Positions 1,322-29,936 of a stretch of 64,000 bases of DNA are shown piece after piece. The stretch's first letter is position 1. Each line of letters starts with the position of its first letter. The notes below the pieces were generated by a model. It made no database searches. It was not told where the DNA came from and saw nothing but the letters and a program-made list of their open reading frames with translations. The translations under genes were made by a program, and so were the position numbers. The stretch spans positions 1-64,000 of the forward strand of contig JAOAQX010000003.1 in NCBI GenBank assembly GCA_025210805.1. Reading direction: 5' to 3'. This stretch comes from Flavobacteriales bacterium (GTDB lineage: Bacteria; Bacteroidota; Bacteroidia; Flavobacteriales; CAJXXR01).

Positions 1322-1455
1322 ATTGATGATTATTTAAAATTTAACAGAAATTTACAAAAAATAATTCAATATACACCTACTAATGAAGTATTTATATGAT
1401 TTTCACAATTACTAAAATGGTTTTTATTCTGAGAAAAGGTTGGAGATACTGAGGA

Positions 1456-1586
1456 GTTCTCGATAAAAATTTTCTTCCGTTGCTCTACAGAAAATTCACT
1501 CGAACTGACATACTCAATACAATACTGTCAATTCGAGTGGTTTTTGATGAAATGCAATGGAATCAAAAATTGTATCGAGAAAAGCA
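1456..1586. repeat. Long imperfect palindromic intergenic repeat
   Basis: The segment 1456-1510 is an imperfect reverse complement of 1526-1585. Both outer ends read ttctcgata on their own strand, and the inner arms cactcgaactgaca and tgtcaattcgagtg match at 13 of 14 positions around a 15-base centre. The right end abuts the stop codon of the FG-GAP gene at 1588, so it could also act as its terminator. A rearranged relative lies at 15885-16036. Dispersed intergenic repeats with the words GAGTTCTCGATA and CACTCGAACTGACA are, as far as I recall, common in flavobacterial genomes. Confidence 0.75.
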
Positions 1587-6755: not shown

Positions 6756-7904
6756 ATGAACAAAATACGACTCATATTTATAGCAATGTTTATGTTCTCA
6801 GTAGCTAAAACAGTTGCTCAAGAGCCTACATATACTCAGGTAGAATATCAATCAAAGAAAACGTTTTCCTTTCCCTTTGAACATCATAATCTTGAATTTC
6901 GTTTTCCCGTAGTCACTCATTTTATAGAGAATCGAAATAATCAAAGCTATGTATATGCCATTCGGCAAACAGATCCTACATGGATTGATAAATTTTCCTA
7001 TCATAATAAGCAAACCATTAAGGTAGATTCGTTTATAATTCCTCAAGAAGTTTTTATGGAAAATCATCAACATATAGAAGAATTCCTTGTGATAGGAAAA
7101 GATTCCTTTTTGATCCAACCTTCTTATGAAGCCACAAATGGAGCGCATGTTTTCTTTGAATTTTCTAAAAATCACCTCAAACGATATGACTTAGCCAATA
7201 ATCACAATGGGAAGTACTTTGCAATTTCAAAAACACATATCAACCCAATAAGCTACGCCAATCACACTCTTGTGGGTAGAATATCCCACCTTGACGGACT
7301 TCTTGATATGCATACCATTGTAGATACAATGTGTACATATCCAGCACTGGTAAAACTCAATTTAAAAGATGGTAGCATCCATTTTTTTGATGAATACGAT
7401 GAGGTTTTGTGTCAAAGGAAAATTGAAGCTCCTTTTGTCCATTTTAAAGAAAGACTCTTTAAAGGCGATAGCTTAATCACTTTATCTCCTTTTACACCAG
7501 AGTTTCATATTTTTTCTGATGAAACTGGAGCCTATTCCAAAAAGTCTTTTGATTTTAAAGATTTTGATGAGCACTTTTATCATCTAAATAATATGAGAAA
7601 AGAGCTAACGGTAAATGACTATTTTTTCTCGATGGTTTTTAACCCGTTTACCCACAAATTTTATGTTCTCATGCTTGAAGGTCTAGCGTACAATGAAACA
7701 GATGATTTTATCGCAAGTCCTGTTCAACAGAGAAAATACACCGTTCTTATTTTCGATGAAGCATTGAATTTAGAAGGGAGCTACAAAATGTCCGAGCACT
7801 TATCTATGCAATTTGAAGGCAGATTGATCCCGAGCCCAAACGGTTTTTATTTACGCAAAATGATCGGTGATCAATATGAAATTCACGAATTCAAAAAACC
7901 ATAA
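6756..7904 (+). CDS. Secreted or periplasmic protein of unknown function
   Basis: The 382-residue product begins with signal peptide MNKIRLIFIAMFMFSVAKTVAQ, so it is exported. The mature part is a run of beta-rich blocks with repeated aromatic and charged residues, such as LVKLNLKDGSIHFFDEYDE and HKFYVLMLEGLAYNE, and near the end YTVLIFDEALNLEG. This looks like a beta-propeller-type fold, weakly reminiscent of the DUF4221 family in Bacteroidota, but I see no diagnostic motif and do not assign it. No sorting domain, lipobox or membrane helix is present. It is a single-gene unit transcribed divergently from gmk, and the product's role is unknown. Confidence 0.75.
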   Translation: MNKIRLIFIAMFMFSVAKTVAQEPTYTQVEYQSKKTFSFPFEHHNLEFRFPVVTHFIENRNNQSYVYAIRQTDPTWIDKFSYHNKQTIKVDSFIIPQEVFMENHQHIEEFLVIGKDSFLIQPSYEATNGAHVFFEFSKNHLKRYDLANNHNGKYFAISKTHINPISYANHTLVGRISHLDGLLDMHTIVDTMCTYPALVKLNLKDGSIHFFDEYDEVLCQRKIEAPFVHFKERLFKGDSLITLSPFTPEFHIFSDETGAYSKKSFDFKDFDEHFYHLNNMRKELTVNDYFFSMVFNPFTHKFYVLMLEGLAYNETDDFIASPVQQRKYTVLIFDEALNLEGSYKMSEHLSMQFEGRLIPSPNGFYLRKMIGDQYEIHEFKKP

Positions 7905-8049
7905 GACTTACTCAATATTGTTTTTAGTGATATCTTTCTTAGTAATGATTAAATACTTACACATAAACACTTTAGATCTTTCATCAACAGCTACCACCCA
8001 CCATCACCACAAAATTTTAGTCTTGAAACAGCTGGTGTGTCATTTTTGA
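7876..8049 (+). CDS. Possible small membrane peptide overlapping two genes
   Basis: A 57-residue frame starts at ATG 7876 inside the last codons of the gene above. It encodes a hydrophobic stretch YSILFLVISFLVMIKYL, one possible membrane helix, then STATTHHHH with four consecutive histidines. It overlaps the 3' end of the opposite-strand gene at 7991. Nothing supports expression apart from the helix and the small overlap with the upstream stop codon. It may well be chance. Confidence 0.2.
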   Translation: MKFTNSKNHKTYSILFLVISFLVMIKYLHINTLDLSSTATTHHHHKILVLKQLVCHF

Positions 8050-9154
8050 TATAAATAATAAAGCTTGCTTTGAAGTTTCTAAATTTTCTTTGTACCACCT
8101 CATATTTTGATTGAGTAGTAAGTTTTCTTTTATGAAACCAATAGTTTTGATGTTTTCGTTTTTTCCAGTTTTTTCTTGGAATTTCGTAAGTGTAATTATT
8201 TTCTTTAGTAAATGTAACTTCCTCATCTTTACCGTCATAATAAGAGTTCAGATAGGCGGTATTACAAAGAACTACTTTTTTATAAAACTTAGACTCTTTT
8301 GAGTCATTAAGTAGTTTAGAGAACTTACCTTTTCCACTAAGACCATATCGTATATGTCCTGAACCAAATTTCCCATAAAAATTACCTTCATGAGCAAGAT
8401 TGAGTTGAATAAAATGATGGATATTTTCTATCCAATTTTTATTCGTCCATTGATTCCTTTGATCTTCATGCTTGCCATAATCATCTTTATCGGAAACTAA
8501 AATGTATTCCAATTCAGAATAATCTTTCGTTGTCAGTCCTTTTTGAAAAATTTGTTGATTTTGGTAAAAATAATTCTTAAAATCACGTTTCAATTTATAT
8601 ATGGAATCCCTAGACGGTACTTGAAGACTCAGTTCTTCAAAATTCTCTTGATCTACTTGTGTATAAAAATTCACTAATGAATCTATAGAGTGATGAATGC
8701 ATTCCATTTTTTGGGATTTAATCGTTAGTTTTCCAAGAAAATCATGAATGGCGTAGAGCCAATCTCCACTATAATTATAAACATCAATTCCTATGAATTT
8801 TACAGGATGTTGGGATTTTGATAATTTACGCACCTTTTTAAGCGTATTGACAAATACTGGGTCCATTTTAGCAGAAACCATCTTGCACAACCACTCTTTA
8901 TTACCCGTTTTCAAATATTGATTGGCTAAATAAGCCGTTGCATGACCTCCTTCTATTACCATATTAGTAACTTTTCTTTTTTTTATATAAAAAGTTGCTA
9001 GTTGAGGATGAAGATCCTTTTCAGATGCCAGCCTATGTGTTTCATCATGTAAATAAAAGACATCCTCCATAGGAGGAATCAGATGTAGGTTTACGATCGT
9101 GTCATTTGCTTTCAGAAAAGTGAAAGGCAATAGGAATAAAAAGAATCTTAACAT
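7991..9154 (-). CDS. Exported EreA/ChaN-like fold protein
   Basis: The start is taken at the ATG at 9154, giving 387 residues and a clean signal peptide MLRFFLFLLPFTFLKAN; an upstream ATG at 9214 would add 20 residues ahead of it. The mature part shows DETHRL, then NMVIEGGHATAYLANQYL, KFIGIDVYNY and AHEGNFYGKFGSGHIRYGL. This order (an E-x-H near the N-terminus, an E in a core strand, a GID strand, and a late His) resembles the erythromycin-esterase and ChaN-like superfamily, whose members are hydrolases or haem-binding proteins. The similarity is by eye only. A box reading TAGTTTTG on this strand (9188-9181) could be its -7 element. The substrate is unknown, and antibiotic resistance should not be assumed. 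Confidence 0.6.
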   Translation of the reverse strand: MLRFFLFLLPFTFLKANDTIVNLHLIPPMEDVFYLHDETHRLASEKDLHPQLATFYIKKRKVTNMVIEGGHATAYLANQYLKTGNKEWLCKMVSAKMDPVFVNTLKKVRKLSKSQHPVKFIGIDVYNYSGDWLYAIHDFLGKLTIKSQKMECIHHSIDSLVNFYTQVDQENFEELSLQVPSRDSIYKLKRDFKNYFYQNQQIFQKGLTTKDYSELEYILVSDKDDYGKHEDQRNQWTNKNWIENIHHFIQLNLAHEGNFYGKFGSGHIRYGLSGKGKFSKLLNDSKESKFYKKVVLCNTAYLNSYYDGKDEEVTFTKENNYTYEIPRKNWKKRKHQNYWFHKRKLTTQSKYEVVQRKFRNFKASFIIYIKNDTPAVSRLKFCGDGGW

Positions 9155-12409: not shown

Positions 12410-12644
12410 AAAATATTTTTTTTGGTTCAACAGGGTGAAGGTAGCAGCAAGTGGAACAAAAAGAGTTTAAGCAATGTAAATTAATGTAAATCGCTTGTAA
12501 TTTAATGTTTTCATGGTGGTTTTACCTATTTTCTTAGTTTATATTTACCAAAAAAAAACACAAAACAATTTCATCAAAAAAACGAAAGAGGCTAAAATTT
12601 AGAAAAAAAATTGACAAACAACAGCCGCCACCATCCATTCTGAT

Positions 12645-13505
12645 ATGATCAAATCACATTTTATATTACTACTTTTTTTGAGCATGATTTCTACCTTTAA
12701 TTTTGGGCAAATAAATTCTGAAATTGAATTAGAAAAAATCTCCTTTAGAAGTATCGGGCACGAATTTCTTTTGATGCTTGAGGATAGTACTTCTAGGATT
12801 TTACCTATCCAAAAAAATGAACACTCTTATAGAATGGATATTGATAGAGAATTTGCCTTTGAACCCGATCTTTTGGTTTTAGCGGTTTATAAAATTTATT
12901 CGCAATACGGTCTTACCAAAAACTATATTGTAGAAGTAAAAAAATGCAATTCTGATGAAATAGTTTATAGTTTTTACTCCAATAGACAAAGAGAAAAAGG
13001 ATTAGAACCTTGTAAACTAAGAAAACTCCCAAAAGATTGTTATCAAATATATTTCACGGAAGTCCCAACAAAAAACGAACAAATAATTGATTATTCATTG
13101 GATTATAAAGTTCTTATTAGTTTTCTGATGGTAACTATTTTGGTGTTGTTATACATCATCCTCAGAAAGAAAAACCGTAAAAAAAGTGTTGAACCAAAGG
13201 AATCATTACGTATTGCATTAGGAAATTATGTTTTCGAACCCAAAAAACTCCTTTTAACTTTTGAAAACCAAAGCGAAGAACTCTCTACTAAAGAATCAGA
13301 TTTACTTTTGTATTTTATTCAGAATGAAAATTCTGTTTTAGAAAGAGCCGCTATTCTCAATAAAGTATGGAACGGGAATACCACATATTTAGGCAGAACC
13401 TTGGATGTGCATATTTCTAAACTGAGAAAAAGGCTAGAAAGAGATGAAAATATTCAAATCTTGACGGTTCGTGGGGTGGGGTACAAATTTGTTATCACTG
13501 ACTGA
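12645..13505 (+). CDS. Membrane-anchored winged-helix transcription regulator
   Basis: The 286-residue protein has a signal sequence (residues 1-21), an extracytoplasmic domain (22-150), one membrane helix at about 155-173 (VLISFLMVTILVLLYIIL) with a basic stop-transfer RKKNRKK, and a cytoplasmic OmpR/PhoB-type winged helix at 190-284. The DNA-binding part is recognisable by LSTKESDLLLYFIQNE, RAAILNKVW, the recognition helix GRTLDVHISKLRKRL and the wing TVRGVGYKF. There is no receiver domain, so this is a one-component sensor that joins an outside signal to DNA binding, like ToxR but with the domains in reverse order. The outside domain has no recognised ligand motif. Targets are unknown; no adjacent gene on the same strand. 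Confidence 0.85.
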   Translation: MIKSHFILLLFLSMISTFNFGQINSEIELEKISFRSIGHEFLLMLEDSTSRILPIQKNEHSYRMDIDREFAFEPDLLVLAVYKIYSQYGLTKNYIVEVKKCNSDEIVYSFYSNRQREKGLEPCKLRKLPKDCYQIYFTEVPTKNEQIIDYSLDYKVLISFLMVTILVLLYIILRKKNRKKSVEPKESLRIALGNYVFEPKKLLLTFENQSEELSTKESDLLLYFIQNENSVLERAAILNKVWNGNTTYLGRTLDVHISKLRKRLERDENIQILTVRGVGYKFVITD

Positions 13506-13533
13506 TTATCGATCTACTTCCGAAATATCCAAA

Positions 13534-13618
13534 CAAGCTATTCGAAGGGAGGAAGGGGGAAGTTATACCGCTTACGTTGTTAATTTACTCACTGCTTAAG
13601 CCCTCTTTGAATAGCTTG
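13534..13618. repeat. Inverted repeat, possible dispersed element
   Basis: caagctattcgaaggga (13534-13550) faces ccctctttgaatagcttg (13601-13618) as an imperfect inverted repeat of about 17 bp with a 50-base centre. A small hairpin, tcccgatttttcggga, follows at 13619-13634. The GC-rich composition stands out from its surroundings. Confidence 0.5.
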
Positions 13619-13721
13619 TCCCGATTTTTCGGGAGGGGAATGAGGATGTTAAGCCAAGTAAACACCTCCGAAAAAGAAGCTAGAACTTATGGTTAAATTA
13701 ACACACCATAAATAGTATAGC

Positions 13722-13750
13722 AAAAAAAAAGCACCCTAAAACTAGGATGC
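13722..13750 (-). terminator. Terminator after the ACP gene
   Basis: On the minus strand, gcatccta, a four-base loop and tagggtgc form an 8-bp stem with one G-U pair, followed by nine T residues. It lies 34 bases beyond the ACP stop. Confidence 0.85.
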
Positions 13751-13783
13751 CTTTGTTATTTTTGTTTTACATAATAAATGGTG

Positions 13784-14026
13784 TTAAGCCATTTTTTGTT
13801 TTACAAGTTCGCAATACTCACCAACATTGGCAAGTTCTCTAATTTCTTGAGCTGTAAACTTTATTTTAAAGCGTTTTTCTGTAGCTACTACTAGCTGAAT
13901 ATGTGTTAATGAATCCCAATCCTCTACATCATCGGCAGTGGTGTTCATATCTAACTCAATATCGTCATCATCTAATACGTCGATAAAAATCTCGTTAACT
14001 TCTTTTAAAATTTCTTCAATTGTCAT
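13784..14026 (-). CDS. Acyl carrier protein
   Basis: This 80-residue acidic protein has the carrier-protein signature WDSLTHIQL; the Ser in DSL is the site that receives 4'-phosphopantetheine. The run EDWDSLTHIQLVVATEKRF matches carrier proteins of specialised pathways more than the fatty-acid-synthesis ACP, which usually reads DSLDTVELVM. It follows the FkbH-like gene after four bases on the same strand and has its own terminator downstream, so the two form an operon. FkbH-type enzymes load an acyl or glyceryl group on a partner ACP; this one is the obvious partner. Confidence 0.92.
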   Translation of the reverse strand: MTIEEILKEVNEIFIDVLDDDDIELDMNTTADDVEDWDSLTHIQLVVATEKRFKIKFTAQEIRELANVGEYCELVKQKMA

Positions 14027-14030
14027 TGCT

Positions 14031-15752
14031 TTATTTTTTACTAATGAAACATTTTTTTGGTTCGAAATTGTGCAAATCTAATACCCAAAGTCCATTTTCT
14101 GAAACAAATCCCAGATTTTTATAATGATCTTCTACCAAAGCATTCTTTGGAGTAGGTAAATATTCTCCCACAAGTTTTGTGATTCCTTTTTCTTTTGCTA
14201 TTTCTGCCAAAGTATTCAACACAAACAACTCCATCCCTCTTTTGAGCACTCTACAACTCATAATCCAAGTATCAATAAAGGCTTCTTGATCTTTAATTTT
14301 AGTAATCAATAAACAAATTAGTCCGTTTTCCCCGTATTTATCATCAAGTGTAAAGGTTAAATCGATCACATTTTCATCCTCCGCCATTTGTTTTACGTCG
14401 TCCTCGGTGTAACGAATTGTACGTAGATTAAATTGATTAGACCTCTGTGATAACTGAGCAACTCTTGGAGTGTTAAAGTTATTAAACTCCTCTACCTTTG
14501 AAGACATCTCCATACTTTGTAAAAAATCGCCCTCATTGGTGAATTTCTTACGTGCAACAGCTCTTTTTGCTTGTTCTTGGTATTGAGCCGTTCTCTTTTT
14601 ATCATTTTCAGAATAAGAAGCCGTCTCAAAAAGATTGAGCGTTCTAATATAACTCATATACTCTGCAGGGTCTTCTGGTAATTCGGGTACAGTAATCCCT
14701 TCTGGAACATTGGTTCTTACCATATTTCTTTCAAAAGGATTATCATCTAAAAATACCATTGAGTCATACCCAATATTGAGTACTTCTTTGATATGTCTAA
14801 TATTATCGGCTTTATTCTCCCAGTTTGCAACAAACATAGAAATATCACTTAATCTAAGCACCATTTCTGGATGTTTTTCAAAGGGTTCTTTAGCAACAGA
14901 CTCTGTATTTTTTGAACAAATGGCTAGAATAATTCCTCTATTTTTCAATTCCAATGCCCAAGTTTGTAGCTCGGTAAAGGCTTTTCCTATTCCCAAATCT
15001 CCCACTTGGATTCCTTCTACTCCGTCGTCTCCAATAATTCCACCCCAAGTGGTATTATCCAAATCTAAAATCAGACATTTTTTAAATTTTCCTTCTATAG
15101 AGGCAAGAATATCTGTGAATCCGTTTGCCAAAGGTGGAATAAATTCCAAACCATAAGCCATATCGGCATTTACATACATTTTTGCATCAAAAACCGTTTC
15201 ATTTCCCAGCTCTGTTTGAAGACTCAAAAGATCTAGAAGGTAAGAATCTGGGAGTTCTTGTACCATTTCCATCATCAAGAAATTGATTTTCCTAAGCTGG
15301 AATAAAAAGGAATTCGCTATTTTATTGGCGAAATTTCCAAAAACCGAATCGTTTATCTCCACAAAATTATCAAAGACCACTTTCGTCTTGGTTCTTTCTT
15401 TTAAAACTTGATAATAATCTTTTTGTTTTTCGATAAAATTTTGGGCAAATATTTCTCTTTCTTCAGAACTGCATTTTTGAAATTTCTTGAGTAGTTTAGG
15501 AGAAGATTGACTAATGAATGTGTATTGAGGATCAAACTCATATAGAGTAGAATTGGGGTTTTCTATCTGTTGATCAATTTGATTATAATCCGCCTCAAAA
15601 ACAATCAATTTATAACCCTTTTCTATCGCATAGCCTTCTATAGCTCTTCTTACAAACTGTGTTGCATAATCTCCAAGTATGGCTACTTTTATTTCTTTAA
15701 AACCTGCTGTTGGCTTTTTTAAGTTTTTCTTTAGTTGATTGAATGTAAGCAT
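14031..15752 (-). CDS. FkbH-like HAD-IIIC acyl-loading enzyme
   Basis: The start is taken at the ATG at 15752 (573 residues); an upstream ATG at 15779 adds nine unlikely residues. The N-terminal third resembles an SGNH-like half seen in this family. The centre holds the HAD motif CLILDLDNTTWGGIIGDDG, with the nucleophilic DxD, plus LAICSKN and MVFLDDNPFERNMV. The last 140 residues look like a GNAT acyltransferase fold (TWIMSCRVLKRGMELFVLN, LVGEYLPTPKN, YKNLGF). This three-part layout is the FkbH type, which dephosphorylates 1,3-bisphosphoglycerate and loads a three-carbon unit onto an ACP in polyketide and some surface-polymer pathways. The ACP follows directly. No synthase genes lie nearby, so the end product is unknown. 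Confidence 0.88.
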   Translation of the reverse strand: MLTFNQLKKNLKKPTAGFKEIKVAILGDYATQFVRRAIEGYAIEKGYKLIVFEADYNQIDQQIENPNSTLYEFDPQYTFISQSSPKLLKKFQKCSSEEREIFAQNFIEKQKDYYQVLKERTKTKVVFDNFVEINDSVFGNFANKIANSFLFQLRKINFLMMEMVQELPDSYLLDLLSLQTELGNETVFDAKMYVNADMAYGLEFIPPLANGFTDILASIEGKFKKCLILDLDNTTWGGIIGDDGVEGIQVGDLGIGKAFTELQTWALELKNRGIILAICSKNTESVAKEPFEKHPEMVLRLSDISMFVANWENKADNIRHIKEVLNIGYDSMVFLDDNPFERNMVRTNVPEGITVPELPEDPAEYMSYIRTLNLFETASYSENDKKRTAQYQEQAKRAVARKKFTNEGDFLQSMEMSSKVEEFNNFNTPRVAQLSQRSNQFNLRTIRYTEDDVKQMAEDENVIDLTFTLDDKYGENGLICLLITKIKDQEAFIDTWIMSCRVLKRGMELFVLNTLAEIAKEKGITKLVGEYLPTPKNALVEDHYKNLGFVSENGLWVLDLHNFEPKKCFISKK

Positions 15753-16149
15753 AATATTTATTTTGAAAGAAATTATCAATTCTTGATAGCTTTTCCTTTC
15801 ATTACAGAAACAAAATTAAGGTAAATAACTTAGCCAGCCATAAGAGATTATTGGAAAATATTGAATATTATTTTTATATTAAAAGTTCTCAATAAAATTT
15901 TGTCAATTCAGTCCCAATGATCCCGGAATAAACTCTGCCCCACCCATCCGGAAGTGATTTTTGATGAAATGTAACGAGTTCTCGATAAAATTTCTTTTTC
16001 GCTTCCCTACAAAGAAATCATTTGAACTGGCAATGTCATTAAAATTTTTCATCGTTTCTCTTCAGAGTGGATTCCGAAATTTCAATAATTGGAATAAATC
16101 ATTTAACTTGCTTTTTTTATTTTATAACATCTTAAAAATAGTTTGATCT
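15753..16149. other. Intergenic region with degenerate repeat
   Basis: This 397-base gap holds the rearranged palindromic repeat (15885-16036) and no convincing gene. A short plus-strand ORF near 15961 lies across the repeat and is judged spurious. The last 50 bases, T-rich, carry the leader of the serine hydrolase. Confidence 0.5.
15885..16036. repeat. Rearranged copy of the palindromic repeat
   Basis: The words gttctcaataaaattt (from 15885), gtgatttttgatgaaatg (from 15954) and gagttctcgataaaat (15976 on) correspond to the left, right and left arms of the element at 1456-1586. The stretch from 15976 to 16030 matches 1454-1508 at most positions. The halves are in a different order, so this is a decayed or recombined copy. 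Confidence 0.6.
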
Positions 16150-17274
16150 ATGAAAAAGGTACTTATTTCAATTGTTTCTCTTTTTATTATCGGTATTATT
16201 TACATTTTTTCGTCTGGGAATACCTACCTATTCAAAGCTTGGAAGAACACTTACTTGTCAGGGAGTTCCAAAGCAAGCATTTTTGACAAAGAAGATTTTG
16301 AGCTTGCCACGGTCTCTAAAGGATCGACACAAGAATGGCAACTGAGCCCCACATACAATCAAAAAAAACTGAACACAAAGATCACTTCAGAACTTGAAAA
16401 TCAAGAAAGTGTAGCTCTTTTAGTATTTCAAAAAGGAAAATTAGATTTCGAAAAATACTGGGGAAAAGGAGGTATCAATGTCACTTCAAATTCCTTTTCT
16501 ATGGCAAAATCTGTGGTGAGTACTTTAATTGGAATTGCCATGAAAGACAATAAAATTGATAATGTTTTTCAACCTGTAACAGATTTTCTTCCAGATTTTG
16601 GAAAAGGACTTGATAAAGAAAAATATTTCAACCACAAACTAGAAATACGACATCTTTTGAGTATGCAAGCTGGTTTAGAGTGGGAGGAAGTATATAGCAA
16701 ACCTTCAAGTACGGTAAGAGCCTATTATGGTGACGATATAAAAAATCAAATGCTTTCCCTAAAAGTAGTAAAAGAACCGGGTAGTGAATATGTTTACCAA
16801 AGTGGGGCAACTCAACTTTTGGCAATGATTTTAGAAAAAGCAACAGGAATGACCCTTGCAGAATATGCCTCTCAAAAATTATGGAAACCTTTAGGTGCAA
16901 GAGCAGATGCAACCTGGCACCTTGAAGGAAGCGGTGAGGAAATCGCTTTTTGTTGTTTAAACTCAACCGCAAGAGACTTTGCTAGAATAGGACAATTGTA
17001 TCTACAAAAAGGAAAATGGAATGGACAAAACCTTGTTCCAGCTCCCTATATTGATATTGCTACCCAAGCCAGTAATAAAAAAGGAAATTATGGTTACCAA
17101 TGGTGGATAGAATCTAATTACAGCAAGCCCTTCTATTATATGCAGGGTTTTTCTGGACAATATGTTGCCGTAATTCCAGATTTGGATTTAGTAATTGTTA
17201 GACTAGGAGAACAAACGGTAGATGGACAATCACTTAAAATTTATGTAGAGGAAATTATAAAAATGTATTCTTAA
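16150..17274 (+). CDS. Serine hydrolase of the beta-lactamase/class C fold
   Basis: The 374-residue protein begins with an uncleaved-looking signal-anchor helix (residues 4-20), so it is likely tethered to the inner membrane facing the periplasm. The catalytic SxxK motif is SMAK at residues 117-120. Other family marks are HLLSMQAGLEWEE, the YQSG element near residue 217 that takes the YxN place, and GYQWWI plus the GFSGQYVAVIPDLDLVIV end typical of class C/PBP4*-like hydrolases. Members act as peptidases, esterases or beta-lactamase-like enzymes; the substrate cannot be told here. It sits 55 bases upstream of the SOD gene, which has its own promoter box, so they are probably separate units. 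Confidence 0.88.
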   Translation: MKKVLISIVSLFIIGIIYIFSSGNTYLFKAWKNTYLSGSSKASIFDKEDFELATVSKGSTQEWQLSPTYNQKKLNTKITSELENQESVALLVFQKGKLDFEKYWGKGGINVTSNSFSMAKSVVSTLIGIAMKDNKIDNVFQPVTDFLPDFGKGLDKEKYFNHKLEIRHLLSMQAGLEWEEVYSKPSSTVRAYYGDDIKNQMLSLKVVKEPGSEYVYQSGATQLLAMILEKATGMTLAEYASQKLWKPLGARADATWHLEGSGEEIAFCCLNSTARDFARIGQLYLQKGKWNGQNLVPAPYIDIATQASNKKGNYGYQWWIESNYSKPFYYMQGFSGQYVAVIPDLDLVIVRLGEQTVDGQSLKIYVEEIIKMYS

Positions 17275-17281
17275 AAAAGTT

Positions 17282-17289
17282 TACATTTG
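17282..17289 (+). promoter_or_regulatory. -7 box upstream of superoxide dismutase
   Basis: TACATTTG matches TAnnTTTG exactly, 40 bases before the SOD ATG and just after the hydrolase stop. No TTG was seen in the -33 position. Confidence 0.5.
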
Positions 17290-17329
17290 TATGAACCCGT
17301 AAAACAACAACCAAAAAACAATTAAAAAA

Positions 17330-17929
17330 ATGAAATTCGAATTACCACAATTAGCGTATGCATACGATGCATTAGAGCCACATTTTGACGCAATGACTAT
17401 GGAAATTCACCATAGCAAACACCACGCAGGATATACTGCAAAACTCAATGCAGCCATTGAAGGTACAGAGTATGCCGAAATGAGTATTGAAGAAATGATG
17501 GCAAAGGGTGAGAGCCTTCCTGGAGGAGTAAGAAACAACGGAGGAGGTTATTATAATCACCGTCTTTTCTGGAATATTTTGAGTCCAAACGGTGGAGGAA
17601 AACCATCGGGAGCAATAGCTGAAGCAATTGATAGAGATTTTGGAAGCTTTGAAAAACTACAAGAAGAATTCAACGCTGCTGCTGCTACTAGATTTGGTTC
17701 TGGGTGGGCTTGGCTTTGTGTGAAAAACGGAAAACTAGAAGTTTGCTCTACCCCAAATCAAGATAACCCATTAATGGGTATTGGATGTAGTGGTACACCA
17801 ATCTTAGGACTTGATGTATGGGAACATGCTTATTACTTAAAGTTTCAAAATCGTCGTCCTGATTATATCAATGCATTTTGGAATTTGATTAACTGGGAGC
17901 AAGTTCAAAAAAACATGGAAAATGCTTAA
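17330..17929 (+). CDS. Iron/manganese superoxide dismutase
   Basis: The 199-residue enzyme converts superoxide to hydrogen peroxide and oxygen in the cytoplasm; no signal peptide is present. The metal ligands can be read: His27 in HHSKHHAGY, His77 in [11 protein letters not shown], and Asp162 and His166 in [19 protein letters not shown]. Gln144 in STPNQDNP sits where manganese enzymes carry their hydrogen-bonding Gln, which favours a Mn or cambialistic enzyme over the strict iron type. Length is normal. It has its own -7 box and a strong terminator, and so appears monocistronic. Confidence 0.95.
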
Positions 17930-19766: not shown

Positions 19767-20657
19767 CTACCTCTTTATAAATTGGAGAAAGTAAGGAAGT
19801 CTGTTTTGAGTATTTAAATAGTAACGTTCTTCTTCGGCTCCAAAACTCCTAAAAAATCGTTTTACCCCTTCTATACTGGATCCCTCGAAATCTATCGTTT
19901 TGACATTTTCGCATTGTTCAATAAAAGTATGAACCAGTAAGTTCATCGCTCGATGTTTTCTCCCAACTTCATTCGAGATAGAAACCATATAGTAAGCAGT
20001 TTCCTTATGTATTAACCACATATTTATCGCTACAAGTTCATTTTCTCTGTAAGCTTGGTATATTTTTAATTTTCCACAAGAAAATAGTTGAGACAAAACA
20101 TTTCTCATTTGCTTTTCTTGAGATCTATTTAAGGTAGCTCCTGTAAAATGAAAATTATTAAAATAGAAAGTTAAACTTGTTTCGATATCTGTAGAGGGCT
20201 GAACAATAATATGGTTTTTTACCGCAGAGCGAATGGCACGCCTAAGTCGTTCCCCTCTTTTCCCTGTTGGAGGATAATCCGCCAATGACAGCATACAATT
20301 TGTTCTTTCTTGAGCCTTCCCTAATTTTAAATCTTGAACCGAAGAATAAGCTATATAATGATAGCGAGATTGCAATTTATCAGAAAAAGCTAATAAAACC
20401 TCCTCTGGAATATTTTTATTGGGAAAAATCCCTAACTGCTGTGTAAGAATAGGAAGTTGAGCAAATTTCCAAAACATTTTTTTTTGGAGAGAAATTGGTA
20501 ACACAAAGTCATAATTCCCAAACACCAAACACTCCCATTTTTTATCAAAAACGATGTCTAAATACCAAGGTTGCGCATAGACCTTAGCATCTTGCACACA
20601 GATTTGGTAAAACTGAATATTGATATTTTCTCGAGAGATTACTTGTATTTCTGACAA
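19767..20657 (-). CDS. FemAB/GNAT-like acyltransferase
   Basis: The 296-residue protein starts at a TTG (20657); no ATG lies upstream in frame before a stop codon. It has the look of a FemAB/BioF2-like double GNAT fold: a first half with PWYLDIVF and LPISLQKK, then a second half with LKIYQAYRENELVAINMWLIHKETAYYMVS, and the closing IDFEGSSIEGVKRFFRSFGAEEERYY, where the acyl-CoA or aminoacyl-tRNA type site would form. FemAB proteins add amino acids to peptidoglycan or act on similar substrates; the Bacteroidota homologues of this size are poorly defined. It is convergent with the LytTR gene. Substrate unknown. Confidence 0.7.
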   Translation of the reverse strand: MSEIQVISRENINIQFYQICVQDAKVYAQPWYLDIVFDKKWECLVFGNYDFVLPISLQKKMFWKFAQLPILTQQLGIFPNKNIPEEVLLAFSDKLQSRYHYIAYSSVQDLKLGKAQERTNCMLSLADYPPTGKRGERLRRAIRSAVKNHIIVQPSTDIETSLTFYFNNFHFTGATLNRSQEKQMRNVLSQLFSCGKLKIYQAYRENELVAINMWLIHKETAYYMVSISNEVGRKHRAMNLLVHTFIEQCENVKTIDFEGSSIEGVKRFFRSFGAEEERYYLNTQNRLPYFLQFIKR

Positions 20658-27208: not shown

Positions 27209-27548
27209 GGAGAATGAAACCATCTTGGCTTATTTATCGATTGTAAAAGACAAAGAGCCTGCTTATGCAGATATTGTAGGAAAATGGCTAACTAACCAAT
27301 CCTTTCTTGTGATCCACCGCTTGGCAGTTTCACCAGAATACCTTGGGAAAGGAATTGCCAAAAGGGTATTTAAAGAAGTTGAAAATATAGCACTATCTCA
27401 AGGTGTTTTTAGCATCAAGGTGGATACCAACTTTGACAACAAACCCATGCTCCATATTTTCAAAAAACTGAACTATAGTTATTGTGGCAAAGTCTATTTT
27501 AGAGGTTCTGAACGCTTGGCTTTTGAGAGGGTGTTACTCCCCGAATAA
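27042..27548 (+). CDS. GNAT-family N-acetyltransferase
   Basis: The 168-residue protein is a complete GNAT enzyme that would move an acetyl group from acetyl-CoA to an amine. Motif A, the acetyl-CoA site, is seen as VIHRLAVSPEYLGKGIAKRVFKEVENIA (residues about 87-114, with the Q/RxxGxG/A loop as LGKGIA). The last strand has FDNKPMLHIFKKLNYSYCGKVYFRGSERLAFER, the usual C-terminal end. The substrate is unknown. Its leader carries the right arm of a 24-bp inverted repeat. A 5'-fragment of the gene is duplicated 2.9 kb upstream. It overlaps the convergent KAP gene by 15 bases at their 3' ends. Confidence 0.92.
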   Translation: MKLIKAQKSQIETIWHILQKAIERRKEDGSNQWQDGYPNIQTIQQDIDAHSGYVLMENETILAYLSIVKDKEPAYADIVGKWLTNQSFLVIHRLAVSPEYLGKGIAKRVFKEVENIALSQGVFSIKVDTNFDNKPMLHIFKKLNYSYCGKVYFRGSERLAFERVLLPE

Positions 27549-29936
27549 CCATTGGAATTCTTCTTCATTAAGTCCATCAATTTGTTTTAATTCATTATGA
27601 AAATTTCTGAGGTATTCCGCATGATATATATATCCATTTAAATTCTCTTTTGTTAATCTTTTTTGATTTATCAGCAAATTGATAATCTCACTATTTAAAC
27701 CATCATTTTCTGCGAGTAGCCTATTTTCTACTCTTGATTTCCTAAGTTTATCAAGACCCCCAATTATATTTCCAAAATCAATCTCTGGGGATTTTTTTAT
27801 AGAGTTATGGATTCTTTTTAGAAAATCACAGTAAAGATCATTATCTATAAGCTTATAGAAAGTAACGGGAATTTGAAAAAACCAAATAATTGAAAATTGC
27901 ATTCTCTGCTCTACACTTTTAATAATTTCTAAATGTTCATTGACAATCACGACCTTTTGCTCTTCACTTTCACCACCGGCAATCTGCTCTGGTGATTCAA
28001 TCCCAATATGCACTCTTAAAGAATCATTTAATAGCTTAACTAAGTTTGAAATAAACTGTCCATTGTCTCTTTTTTGGTTCAGACTGCATATTTTTTCGAT
28101 AAAGTCTAAAGAAGGCTTAAGACCCAAATTAGATCTTAATTTATTTTCAATAATTAAGTAAATCTGTTTATCAAGCCCCTCTTTTATCCATTTCTCAATT
28201 TGCGTGAGTTCAAAAGTATTAGAGAAAATATCTTCAAAATGTTTGATATCAATTGTGAAGATCTGCGAATTAAAATAATAATGGTAATATTCAATATGAG
28301 AAATGGCCAATGTAGATACAGAATTTTCACTTTTTTTTGAAAATAATTCTTTAATGATATACATAACTTCCTTTTGACCCCTTTTATCCTCTTTATATAA
28401 TTTTTTTATTAAGGTTTCCATATTTTCATTTACATCAGTAATAAAGCCCTTGTTTTCTTGATCTTTCATAGATTTATAGGATAAATTCTCGATATCTTTT
28501 TTTAAACAGGAGTAAGCTTTTAAATAGCCAGTTTTTAGAATACTTAGATAAAAAACTTGGTGAAACCAAAAATATTTAAAATTCGGGCTTTGCTTAAAAA
28601 TTATCAATGCATTCAGAATCCTTTTTATCTTTCTGAAATTATTAATCCTTAAAAAAGAAATTCCTAGGTTATCGAATTCATCATCTGAACTTACACCATG
28701 CTTTTCAACAACTCTTAAACCTAGTCTCAAACTTGCAAAATGAGCTTCCAAATTAGATATTTCCTGCAAATTTTCAGGAAATATTTCTTTTAATTTTCTT
28801 ATAAAATAATTTAAAAAGATTTCCTGCTTTACAAGCCCTAAATCATATTCTAAATTGACAATTTTTTCCATAAAATGATAAGGATTTGCATCTATGGAAC
28901 GCTTCAATTGTTTAGCAACATACTCTTTATCATAACCGAGAACATAGACCATATTTGGAAAATTTGCGGTATTTCTAATGAGTTTAAATACTTCCATTAT
29001 TTCTTGAGCATCCAAGCGATCAAGATCGTCAACAAACACCCAGACTTTTTTATCTAAGGAATTAATTTTTTTTACTAATGATTCATATATTTCTCTTTGT
29101 GTTTGTTTAGGATAGAATAAACTTAAAGCACTATCCAGCCAAGACTTTTTAAAGGCACTGTTTATACTGACCAAATACCGCTTTATTGATTTATCGATAT
29201 CAAAGAAATAGAACGATAAATGGCGTTCTAGCTCATCAAAATAGGTTCTTAAAATAGCTTCTTTTGAATTCAGTTTCCAAGGATGAAAAATAAAGCTAAT
29301 ATGATTTTCGGACTCAACTTCCTTCTCAAGTAAATTCATAAAAGTAGTTTTACCTTCTCCCCATTTACCTAAAATGGATAAGGTAAAAGCGTCATTATTG
29401 TTTTTTACTTCCGAAATTTTGTTGAAAATCATTTTTACTTCATCACTTCTATTCAATTGATCTGCCTCTTCACTGGTTTCATCATTAAGCAAAGAGCCCG
29501 CTTTTTCTTCAGCCTTTTCACGTGCTCGTTTTTTTATTACTTTGCATGATGCAAAGAGAGCCGCAATAACAAGGGTTAAACCAATAGGACACACGAAGAC
29601 TTGTAAAATTTCTTTTTTTCCGAAATTTAGATCCTTTAAATCAGAAAAATAGCCAAAAAGGAATAGAAGAAGTATATTAATGGCTATCATCCAATCTCTA
29701 AAGCGTAAAACCGCTTCAAAAATTATTATTTTGAGCACCATAATTCCTCCAATTATCACAACGATAGTTGTAGAAATCCCAATATTTTCCTTATTTAAAA
29801 CAAAGGTAAAAAAGTCCTTCACCAAGTATGAAAGCTTAGACATTACGAGAAACAAAAAAAGATTCAGAAATACTAAAACTACAATGAGCTTAATATAGGC
29901 TGATTTTTGTTGAATAATTTGTTGAATAGATGCCAT
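27534..29936 (-). CDS. KAP-family P-loop NTPase with N-terminal membrane helices
   Basis: The 800-residue protein has four membrane helices in its first 135 residues (about 13-33, 54-76, 82-98, 110-131), then a KAP P-loop NTPase. The Walker A motif is GKWGEGKT (residues 190-197), followed by the KAP-type HPWKLNSKEAI strand, and the Walker B motif is VWVFVDDLDRL (298-308). The classical KAP proteins carry the helices between Walker A and B; here they come first. The 400-residue C-terminal region has many Lys, Glu and Asn and no recognised domain. KAP NTPases are sporadic and are suspected in phage defence and membrane-associated complexes. No paired effector gene is adjacent. Confidence 0.9.
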   Translation of the reverse strand: MASIQQIIQQKSAYIKLIVVLVFLNLFLFLVMSKLSYLVKDFFTFVLNKENIGISTTIVVIIGGIMVLKIIIFEAVLRFRDWMIAINILLLFLFGYFSDLKDLNFGKKEILQVFVCPIGLTLVIAALFASCKVIKKRAREKAEEKAGSLLNDETSEEADQLNRSDEVKMIFNKISEVKNNNDAFTLSILGKWGEGKTTFMNLLEKEVESENHISFIFHPWKLNSKEAILRTYFDELERHLSFYFFDIDKSIKRYLVSINSAFKKSWLDSALSLFYPKQTQREIYESLVKKINSLDKKVWVFVDDLDRLDAQEIMEVFKLIRNTANFPNMVYVLGYDKEYVAKQLKRSIDANPYHFMEKIVNLEYDLGLVKQEIFLNYFIRKLKEIFPENLQEISNLEAHFASLRLGLRVVEKHGVSSDDEFDNLGISFLRINNFRKIKRILNALIIFKQSPNFKYFWFHQVFYLSILKTGYLKAYSCLKKDIENLSYKSMKDQENKGFITDVNENMETLIKKLYKEDKRGQKEVMYIIKELFSKKSENSVSTLAISHIEYYHYYFNSQIFTIDIKHFEDIFSNTFELTQIEKWIKEGLDKQIYLIIENKLRSNLGLKPSLDFIEKICSLNQKRDNGQFISNLVKLLNDSLRVHIGIESPEQIAGGESEEQKVVIVNEHLEIIKSVEQRMQFSIIWFFQIPVTFYKLIDNDLYCDFLKRIHNSIKKSPEIDFGNIIGGLDKLRKSRVENRLLAENDGLNSEIINLLINQKRLTKENLNGYIYHAEYLRNFHNELKQIDGLNEEEFQWLFGE

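Follow-up and report, generated by a model that had tools for sequence, protein, structure and literature searches.

Enzymes of the FkbH family transfer the glyceryl group of 1,3-bisphosphoglycerate to an acyl carrier protein (ACP), and in the Dlt system the loader, DltA, is an adenylating enzyme. An FkbH acting with a lone ACP has been proposed to give glyceryl-ACP (PMC7489565). DltB is described as receiving its acyl group from a carrier protein, and the FXYXXF acyl-shuttle motif as known from DltX and PatA (PMC12148441). Glyceroyl has been named as one of the rare decorations of Bacteroidota O-glycans (PMC12871550).

The window analysed here, a stretch of 64,000 nucleotides from a Flavobacteriales genome, encodes an FkbH-type loader and an ACP which a preliminary description had called an isolated pair. 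These two genes form the loading half of a cassette divided between two places; its other genes have moved elsewhere rather than been lost, and lie together on another contig, referred to here as C28 (Table 1).

Table 1. Features of the split cassette, in window positions unless C28 is given
Feature	Position	Strand	Remarks	Profile
FkbH-type HAD-IIIC acyl loader	14031..15752	-	573 aa; ATG at 15752, stop ends 14031	TIGR01686, PF21211
Acyl carrier protein (ACP)	13784..14026	-	80 aa; phosphopantetheine Ser39 in DSL	PF00550
Terminator-like hairpin closing the FkbH-ACP unit	13727..13754	-	12-pair stem, then T run
Copy of dispersed repeat of about 140 bp	13563..13704		Close behind the hairpin, where an intact cassette would have MaoC
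MaoC dehydratase	C28:200212-200601	+	56-57% best identity to FkbH-locus proteins
KR	C28:200598-201314	+	55% best identity to FkbH-locus proteins; FabG-like
SGNH protein	C28:201311-202237	-	28% best identity to FkbH-locus proteins
MBOAT	C28:202250-203677	-	52% best identity to FkbH-locus proteins	PF03062

The FkbH-ACP pair and its surroundings

Both members of the pair were recognised by profile searches. FkbH passed the curated cut-off of TIGR01686 (E 1.9e-89; 300 bits, cut-off 147; residues 224-552) and matched PF21211, FkbH_N, over residues 22-216 (E 1.3e-63), and the ACP matched PF00550 at E 1.8e-5 (25.3 bits; gathering score 20.8). With only 4 nt between the two genes by ORF calling, and a hairpin after them, the two-gene unit of loader and carrier proposed in the preliminary description stands. 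Its terminator was likewise found, as the hairpin of Table 1; a scan of 12500-17500 gave four terminator-like sites versus 2.9 (sd 2.2) in shuffles, so that the case for it rests on the place and length of the hairpin and not on the count. In an alignment of 37 FkbH rows, with the window sequence counted in and two incomplete rows left out, the HAD residues D230 and D232, as well as D336, D337 and C500, are invariant (37/37). C500 is the C-terminal SCR cysteine, which we take to be the acyl site.

The sole solved relative of this FkbH by sequence at E 0.001 or better is BF1531 of Bacteroides fragilis (PDB 3SLR), with which residues 2-383 align at E 2.4e-131; it has been called uncharacterized, and its 387-residue chain does not reach the C-terminal part of FkbH. 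The window's genome (3.12 Mb in 34 contigs) holds a single FkbH at E 0.001 or better. It is at most about 58% identical over its full length to those of the FkbH loci, and a tree gave no definite placement for it; the ACP is 44-62% identical to the ACPs of close FkbH loci and 35-44% to those of distant ones. A plasmid search returned 118 matching records, every one below 60% identity and 75 of them from Sinorhizobium or Streptomyces.

Around the pair, the flanking ORFs resemble housekeeping genes or hypotheticals, as judged by eye and, for five neighbours, with Pfam. By the same means no polyketide, acyltransferase or glycan gene was found to adjoin it, which agrees with the earlier statement that no synthase or acyltransferase is adjacent; the nearest acyltransferase-like ORF found was an Acetyltransf_6 gene at 19767-20657. 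A polyketide or tetronate use of the pair was set aside, as ORFs read by eye beside the window pair and the C28 genes included no synthase and no FabH-like ring-closing enzyme.

The repeat behind the hairpin is MITE- or REP-like, with inverted repeats in and just before the copy, and 58 matches to 13500-13790 were found within the genome, self included. The copy is a possible relic of the break in the cassette; no listed copy lies close to the C28 cassette genes, the nearest being at C28:82683, so that breakage driven by the repeat is not demonstrated. The intergenic stretch at 15976-16046, which is 74-86% similar to window positions 1454-1523 and to two sites in locus L064, is probably another dispersed repeat. 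Further along the window, an 800-aa protein (27534-29936) that looks P-loop KAP-like by eye matched PADLOC PifA at E 3e-35, and PDC-S20 and QatA more weakly, and is possibly a defence-type NTPase. An anti-phage role of FkbH or the ACP was also considered and rejected, as neither had a PADLOC match.

The other half of the cassette on a second contig

On C28, the MaoC, KR, SGNH and MBOAT genes stand side by side in this order (C28:200212-203677), with the 3' ends of KR and SGNH overlapping by 4 bp. A search of the genome with PF03062 found one MBOAT, the one on C28. The pair and these four genes are on separate contigs and lie at least about 23 kb apart even with the contig ends touching. The isolation of the pair thus holds within the window but not in the genome, where the other four cassette genes are together. 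The suggestion of a surface product assembled elsewhere in the genome and supplied by the pair, with an MBOAT as a candidate, gains support from the place of the sole MBOAT beside SGNH, KR and MaoC, the role of the MBOAT itself being putative.

The residues and folds of these proteins were examined in turn. In the C28 MaoC, Asp27 and His32 are invariant in 10/10 sequences and align with the D and H of 1IQ6; we take the Asp and His of the MaoC hydratase motif to be catalytic. Its predicted structure (pLDDT 93.4) fits this (R)-hydratase with a TM of 0.92, and its nearest sequence relatives are human HTD2 and (R)-enoyl-CoA hydratases. The MBOAT has the C terminus FIYFQF, an FXYXXF acyl-shuttle motif that is present in 20/20 MBOATs from FkbH loci but is non-specific, as the MBOAT of a genome designated G001, described below, carries it too. 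Ser57 and His288 of the SGNH protein are invariant in 16/16 sequences, and its predicted structure (pLDDT 75) gave only weak matches to GDSL/SGNH folds.

The four C28 genes, like the two in the window, have uninterrupted reading frames of full length, and the checked residues of FkbH, ACP and MaoC are kept. This argues against a pair in decay, left over from a glycan cluster gained by horizontal transfer and now making nothing. The separation of the halves, the dispersed repeat behind the ACP and the lack of any glycan genes seen around the pair would agree with such a reading, but it is highly improbable. A search of the genome with PF04932 (Wzy_C) gave four matches, three of them above the cut-off, with neighbours that are mostly housekeeping-like; no clear glycan cluster was seen around these three, so no polymer is named.

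FkbH loci in related genomes

FkbH is patchy in the order to which the genome belongs, with matches in 22 of 395 sampled genomes at E 0.001 or better; in the phylum sample it was found in 7/395 at E 1e-100 or better. Both figures count the window's own genome and are lower bounds, as the first search stage scores few candidates per genome. The genome collection supplied 17 loci, five low-scoring ones of the 22 non-self order matches being left out. Neighbours were read by ORF calling and tblastn at 38 loci, of which seven at 33-35% were dropped; the close set is the other 31, the window not counted, all at least 41% identical to the window FkbH. In this set an ACP was found at 24 loci (and none at the other seven), an MBOAT at 15, MaoC at 12, KR at 10 and a VOC protein at 5; these tallies are lower bounds, with several loci ending at contig ends, and some of the reference proteins come from the same loci. 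Glycosyltransferase-like ORFs were noticed by eye near several cassettes.

The order FkbH-ACP-MaoC-KR-MBOAT-SGNH is contiguous in L043, L046 and L049, all of one genus. A larger cluster in relatives, with the rest lost here, had been named as the finding that would tell against an isolated pair; the larger cluster does exist, but the rest has moved and is not lost. The tailoring genes vary. In L045, L048 and L050 a methyltransferase and a VOC protein occupy the place of MaoC-KR, and in L044, L047 and L095 the ACP is followed directly by MBOAT-SGNH, without MaoC-KR; L006, L009, L016 and L019 have FkbH-ACP-MaoC-KR and no MBOAT in the stretch examined. MaoC and VOC never occur together among the 31 loci, but the tailoring sets are not clean modules, because L009 and L019 carry a similar methyltransferase next to MaoC-KR, encoded on the opposite strand. 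The ACP is encoded with MBOAT-SGNH in L042-L050 and L095, and is on the other contig in the window's genome. At L043 a single FkbH is accompanied by two ACPs and three MBOATs, with one ACP directly before MBOAT-SGNH and the other before MaoC-KR-MBOAT-SGNH. In the genus with the most loci, tailoring genes precede every MBOAT that ends FIYEQF or FIYQQF (5), and the ACP directly precedes every one that ends FIYA.F (3), a suggestive sign, from few and related loci, that the motif variants may be matched to the acyl group.

A MaoC profile matched 8/395 order genomes at E 1e-10 or better. Six of them score at least 90 bits, and all six are FkbH-positive; the remaining two, with weaker scores of 62 and 73 bits, are without FkbH. 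The search is partly circular, in that five of the six strong genomes contributed sequences to the profile. The sixth, G162, contributed none, and it carries a MaoC-SDR fusion immediately ahead of FkbH-ACP. A chance figure of 1.5e-8 therefore overstates independence, because five of the six fed the profile and the genes are linked except in the window's genome. The weight rests on the lack of a strong MaoC elsewhere in the sample and on the unlinked retention of the genes in the window's genome. FkbH-ACP very probably works together with MaoC-KR.

It could be, instead, that the ACP carries plain glyceryl or another non-lactyl product, with MaoC-KR serving elsewhere, e.g., on 3-hydroxyacyl chains, and with the envelope polymer glyceroylated. 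The loci that lack MaoC-KR (L044, L047 and L095) favour this, as does the kinship of the C28 MaoC to HTD2 and the (R)-enoyl-CoA hydratases by sequence and to 1IQ6 by fold. So do the FabH-like ORFs, read by eye, that stand with a further ACP some genes upstream of the L044 and L045 cassettes, by reason of which chain-building may take place at those two loci. However, the frequency of MaoC and KR in the close set, the 394-aa MaoC-SDR fusion (7517-8701) just upstream of FkbH-ACP in the distant L056, and the confinement of strong MaoC matches to FkbH genomes in the order sample, subject to the circularity of the profile, all speak for MaoC-KR acting on what FkbH loads. In addition, the stretch from FkbH to SGNH in L043, L046 and L049 showed no ketosynthase, nor was one noticed by eye next to the window pair or the C28 genes. 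The glyceryl reading is accordingly regarded as quite unlikely.

The last step calls for more caution. MBOATs occur in 205/395 order genomes at E 1e-60 or better, versus 22 with FkbH, and G001, the one sister-genus genome, which is 83% complete, has a similar MBOAT-SGNH pair (52% and 28%) whose MBOAT also ends FIYFQF; searches of this incomplete genome found neither FkbH nor MaoC. The sister-genus pair (locus L100, 1712-4063) stands among housekeeping-like genes. The MBOAT-SGNH pair may therefore predate the pathway, since G001 has a similar pair without FkbH or MaoC, and, MBOATs being so common, the last step may lie outside it. FkbH-ACP and MaoC-KR would then cooperate while another transferase (an N-acyltransferase, AT3 or GNAT) passes on the acyl group, the C28 MBOAT-SGNH being an ancestral ordinary O-acetyltransferase. 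Such enzymes could be supplied by the GNAT-like ORFs, judged by eye, beside FkbH-ACP in L094 and L056, or by the AT3-cluster gene (PF01757 in L046) that immediately precedes FkbH at six loci. Against this, the genome's only MBOAT abuts MaoC-KR together with the SGNH gene, whose end overlaps that of KR, and its best non-self match among the 395 genomes is the MBOAT of the FkbH cassette of G389, although G001 comes second. The other-transferase reading is held to be unlikely, and MBOAT-SGNH is probably the exit of the pathway.

A proposed pathway and its relation to known systems

From family knowledge and the intact residues, FkbH would first load the ACP, through its phosphopantetheine arm at Ser39, with glyceryl taken from 1,3-bisphosphoglycerate. 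The C28 MaoC may then dehydrate this 2,3-dihydroxypropionyl thioester to the enol of pyruvyl-ACP, which KR would reduce to lactyl-ACP, the most likely product; lactyl, deduced from gene content, is put at slightly better than an even call. In the manner of Dlt and Pat, the MBOAT would then take the acyl group across the membrane and attach it to the Tyr of FIYFQF, from which the SGNH protein would hand it to a polymer of the envelope, probably a glycan. The judgements on MaoC-KR, on the exit and on lactyl are not independent of each other, and the account as a whole, from split cassette through lactyl-ACP and MBOAT-SGNH to an envelope polymer, is credible at a little under even confidence. Against it also count the seven close loci where no ACP was found, the four loci with FkbH-ACP-MaoC-KR and no MBOAT in the stretch examined, the low identity of the C28 SGNH protein to those of relatives with its weak fold matches, and the lack of any glycan genes seen alongside either half. 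More tentative is its extension to the Bacteroidota at large, as a Dlt-like, carrier-fed acylation of the envelope in which FkbH is the loader and a glycolytic intermediate becomes, on an ACP of its own, a C3 hydroxy-acyl group. Tailoring would be exchangeable (none giving glyceryl, MaoC-KR lactyl, methyltransferase-VOC a methylated form), with export by an acyl-matched MBOAT-SGNH.

If true, a cassette in which a dedicated ACP is served by a loader drawing on glycolysis would form a second, carrier-fed branch, in Gram-negatives, and would suggest genes behind the glyceroyl-type groups on Bacteroidota glycans (PMC12871550). It also means that a pathway contiguous in relatives is still recognisable once split. 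No title on such an FkbH-fed system was found among those listed from the open-licence literature searched, subscription papers being outside its scope, and searches of the same literature found no paper on FkbH with Bacteroidetes and ACP, with O-antigen, or with bryostatin and lactate, nor one joining MBOAT, SGNH, polysaccharide and ACP.

Several known systems share parts with this one. The precedent for a dehydration and reduction to lactyl is the loading module of bryostatin BryA, which has FkbH, ACP, DH and KR together, with a proposed D-lactyl starter; its parts are fused in a polyketide synthase, whereas here they are separate small proteins. In Campylobacter, the Cj1295 locus presumably holds a HAD-IIIC/FkbH gene. 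Cj1295 has been tied to di-O-methylglyceric acid, which is described on the pseudaminic acid of flagellin and so is a glyceric-acid group on a surface glycan (PMC3068675). The O-antigen of Pragia fontium is reported to bear D-glyceroyl on a surface glycan, but as an amide (PMC10609480). In the suomilide and varlaxin clusters FkbH is thought to load glycerate that is then methylated, and an MBOAT is in the cluster, but the products are described as non-ribosomal peptides, not a surface polymer (PMC10143770). The tetronate antibiotics come closer on the loading side, with the FkbH-like Mad7 and the lone ACP Mad8 being the same type of loader with a stand-alone ACP and 1,3-bisphosphoglycerate as the proposed substrate (PMC7489565). 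As described there, glyceryl-ACP goes on to a FabH-like enzyme and a polyketide, where the cassettes here have a dehydratase, a reductase and MBOAT-SGNH instead.

On the export side, Dlt D-alanylation (DltC, DltB, DltD and DltX) shares the carrier protein, the MBOAT, the Tyr motif FXYXXF and the SGNH partner (PMC12148441). The cassette is not filed as Dlt, because FkbH occupies the place of DltA, and the acyl group here would be a hydroxy-acid derived from glycolysis. The O-acetylation of peptidoglycan by PatA and PatB shares an MBOAT with a C-terminal FXYXXF and an SGNH protein (PMC12148441), and the Tyr motif here is fused to the MBOAT, as in PatA. Pat, as described, draws on acetyl-CoA with no carrier protein, in contrast to the ACP and loader present here. 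FkbH loading and MBOAT-SGNH acylation are both known, and the cassette would be a variant of the two.
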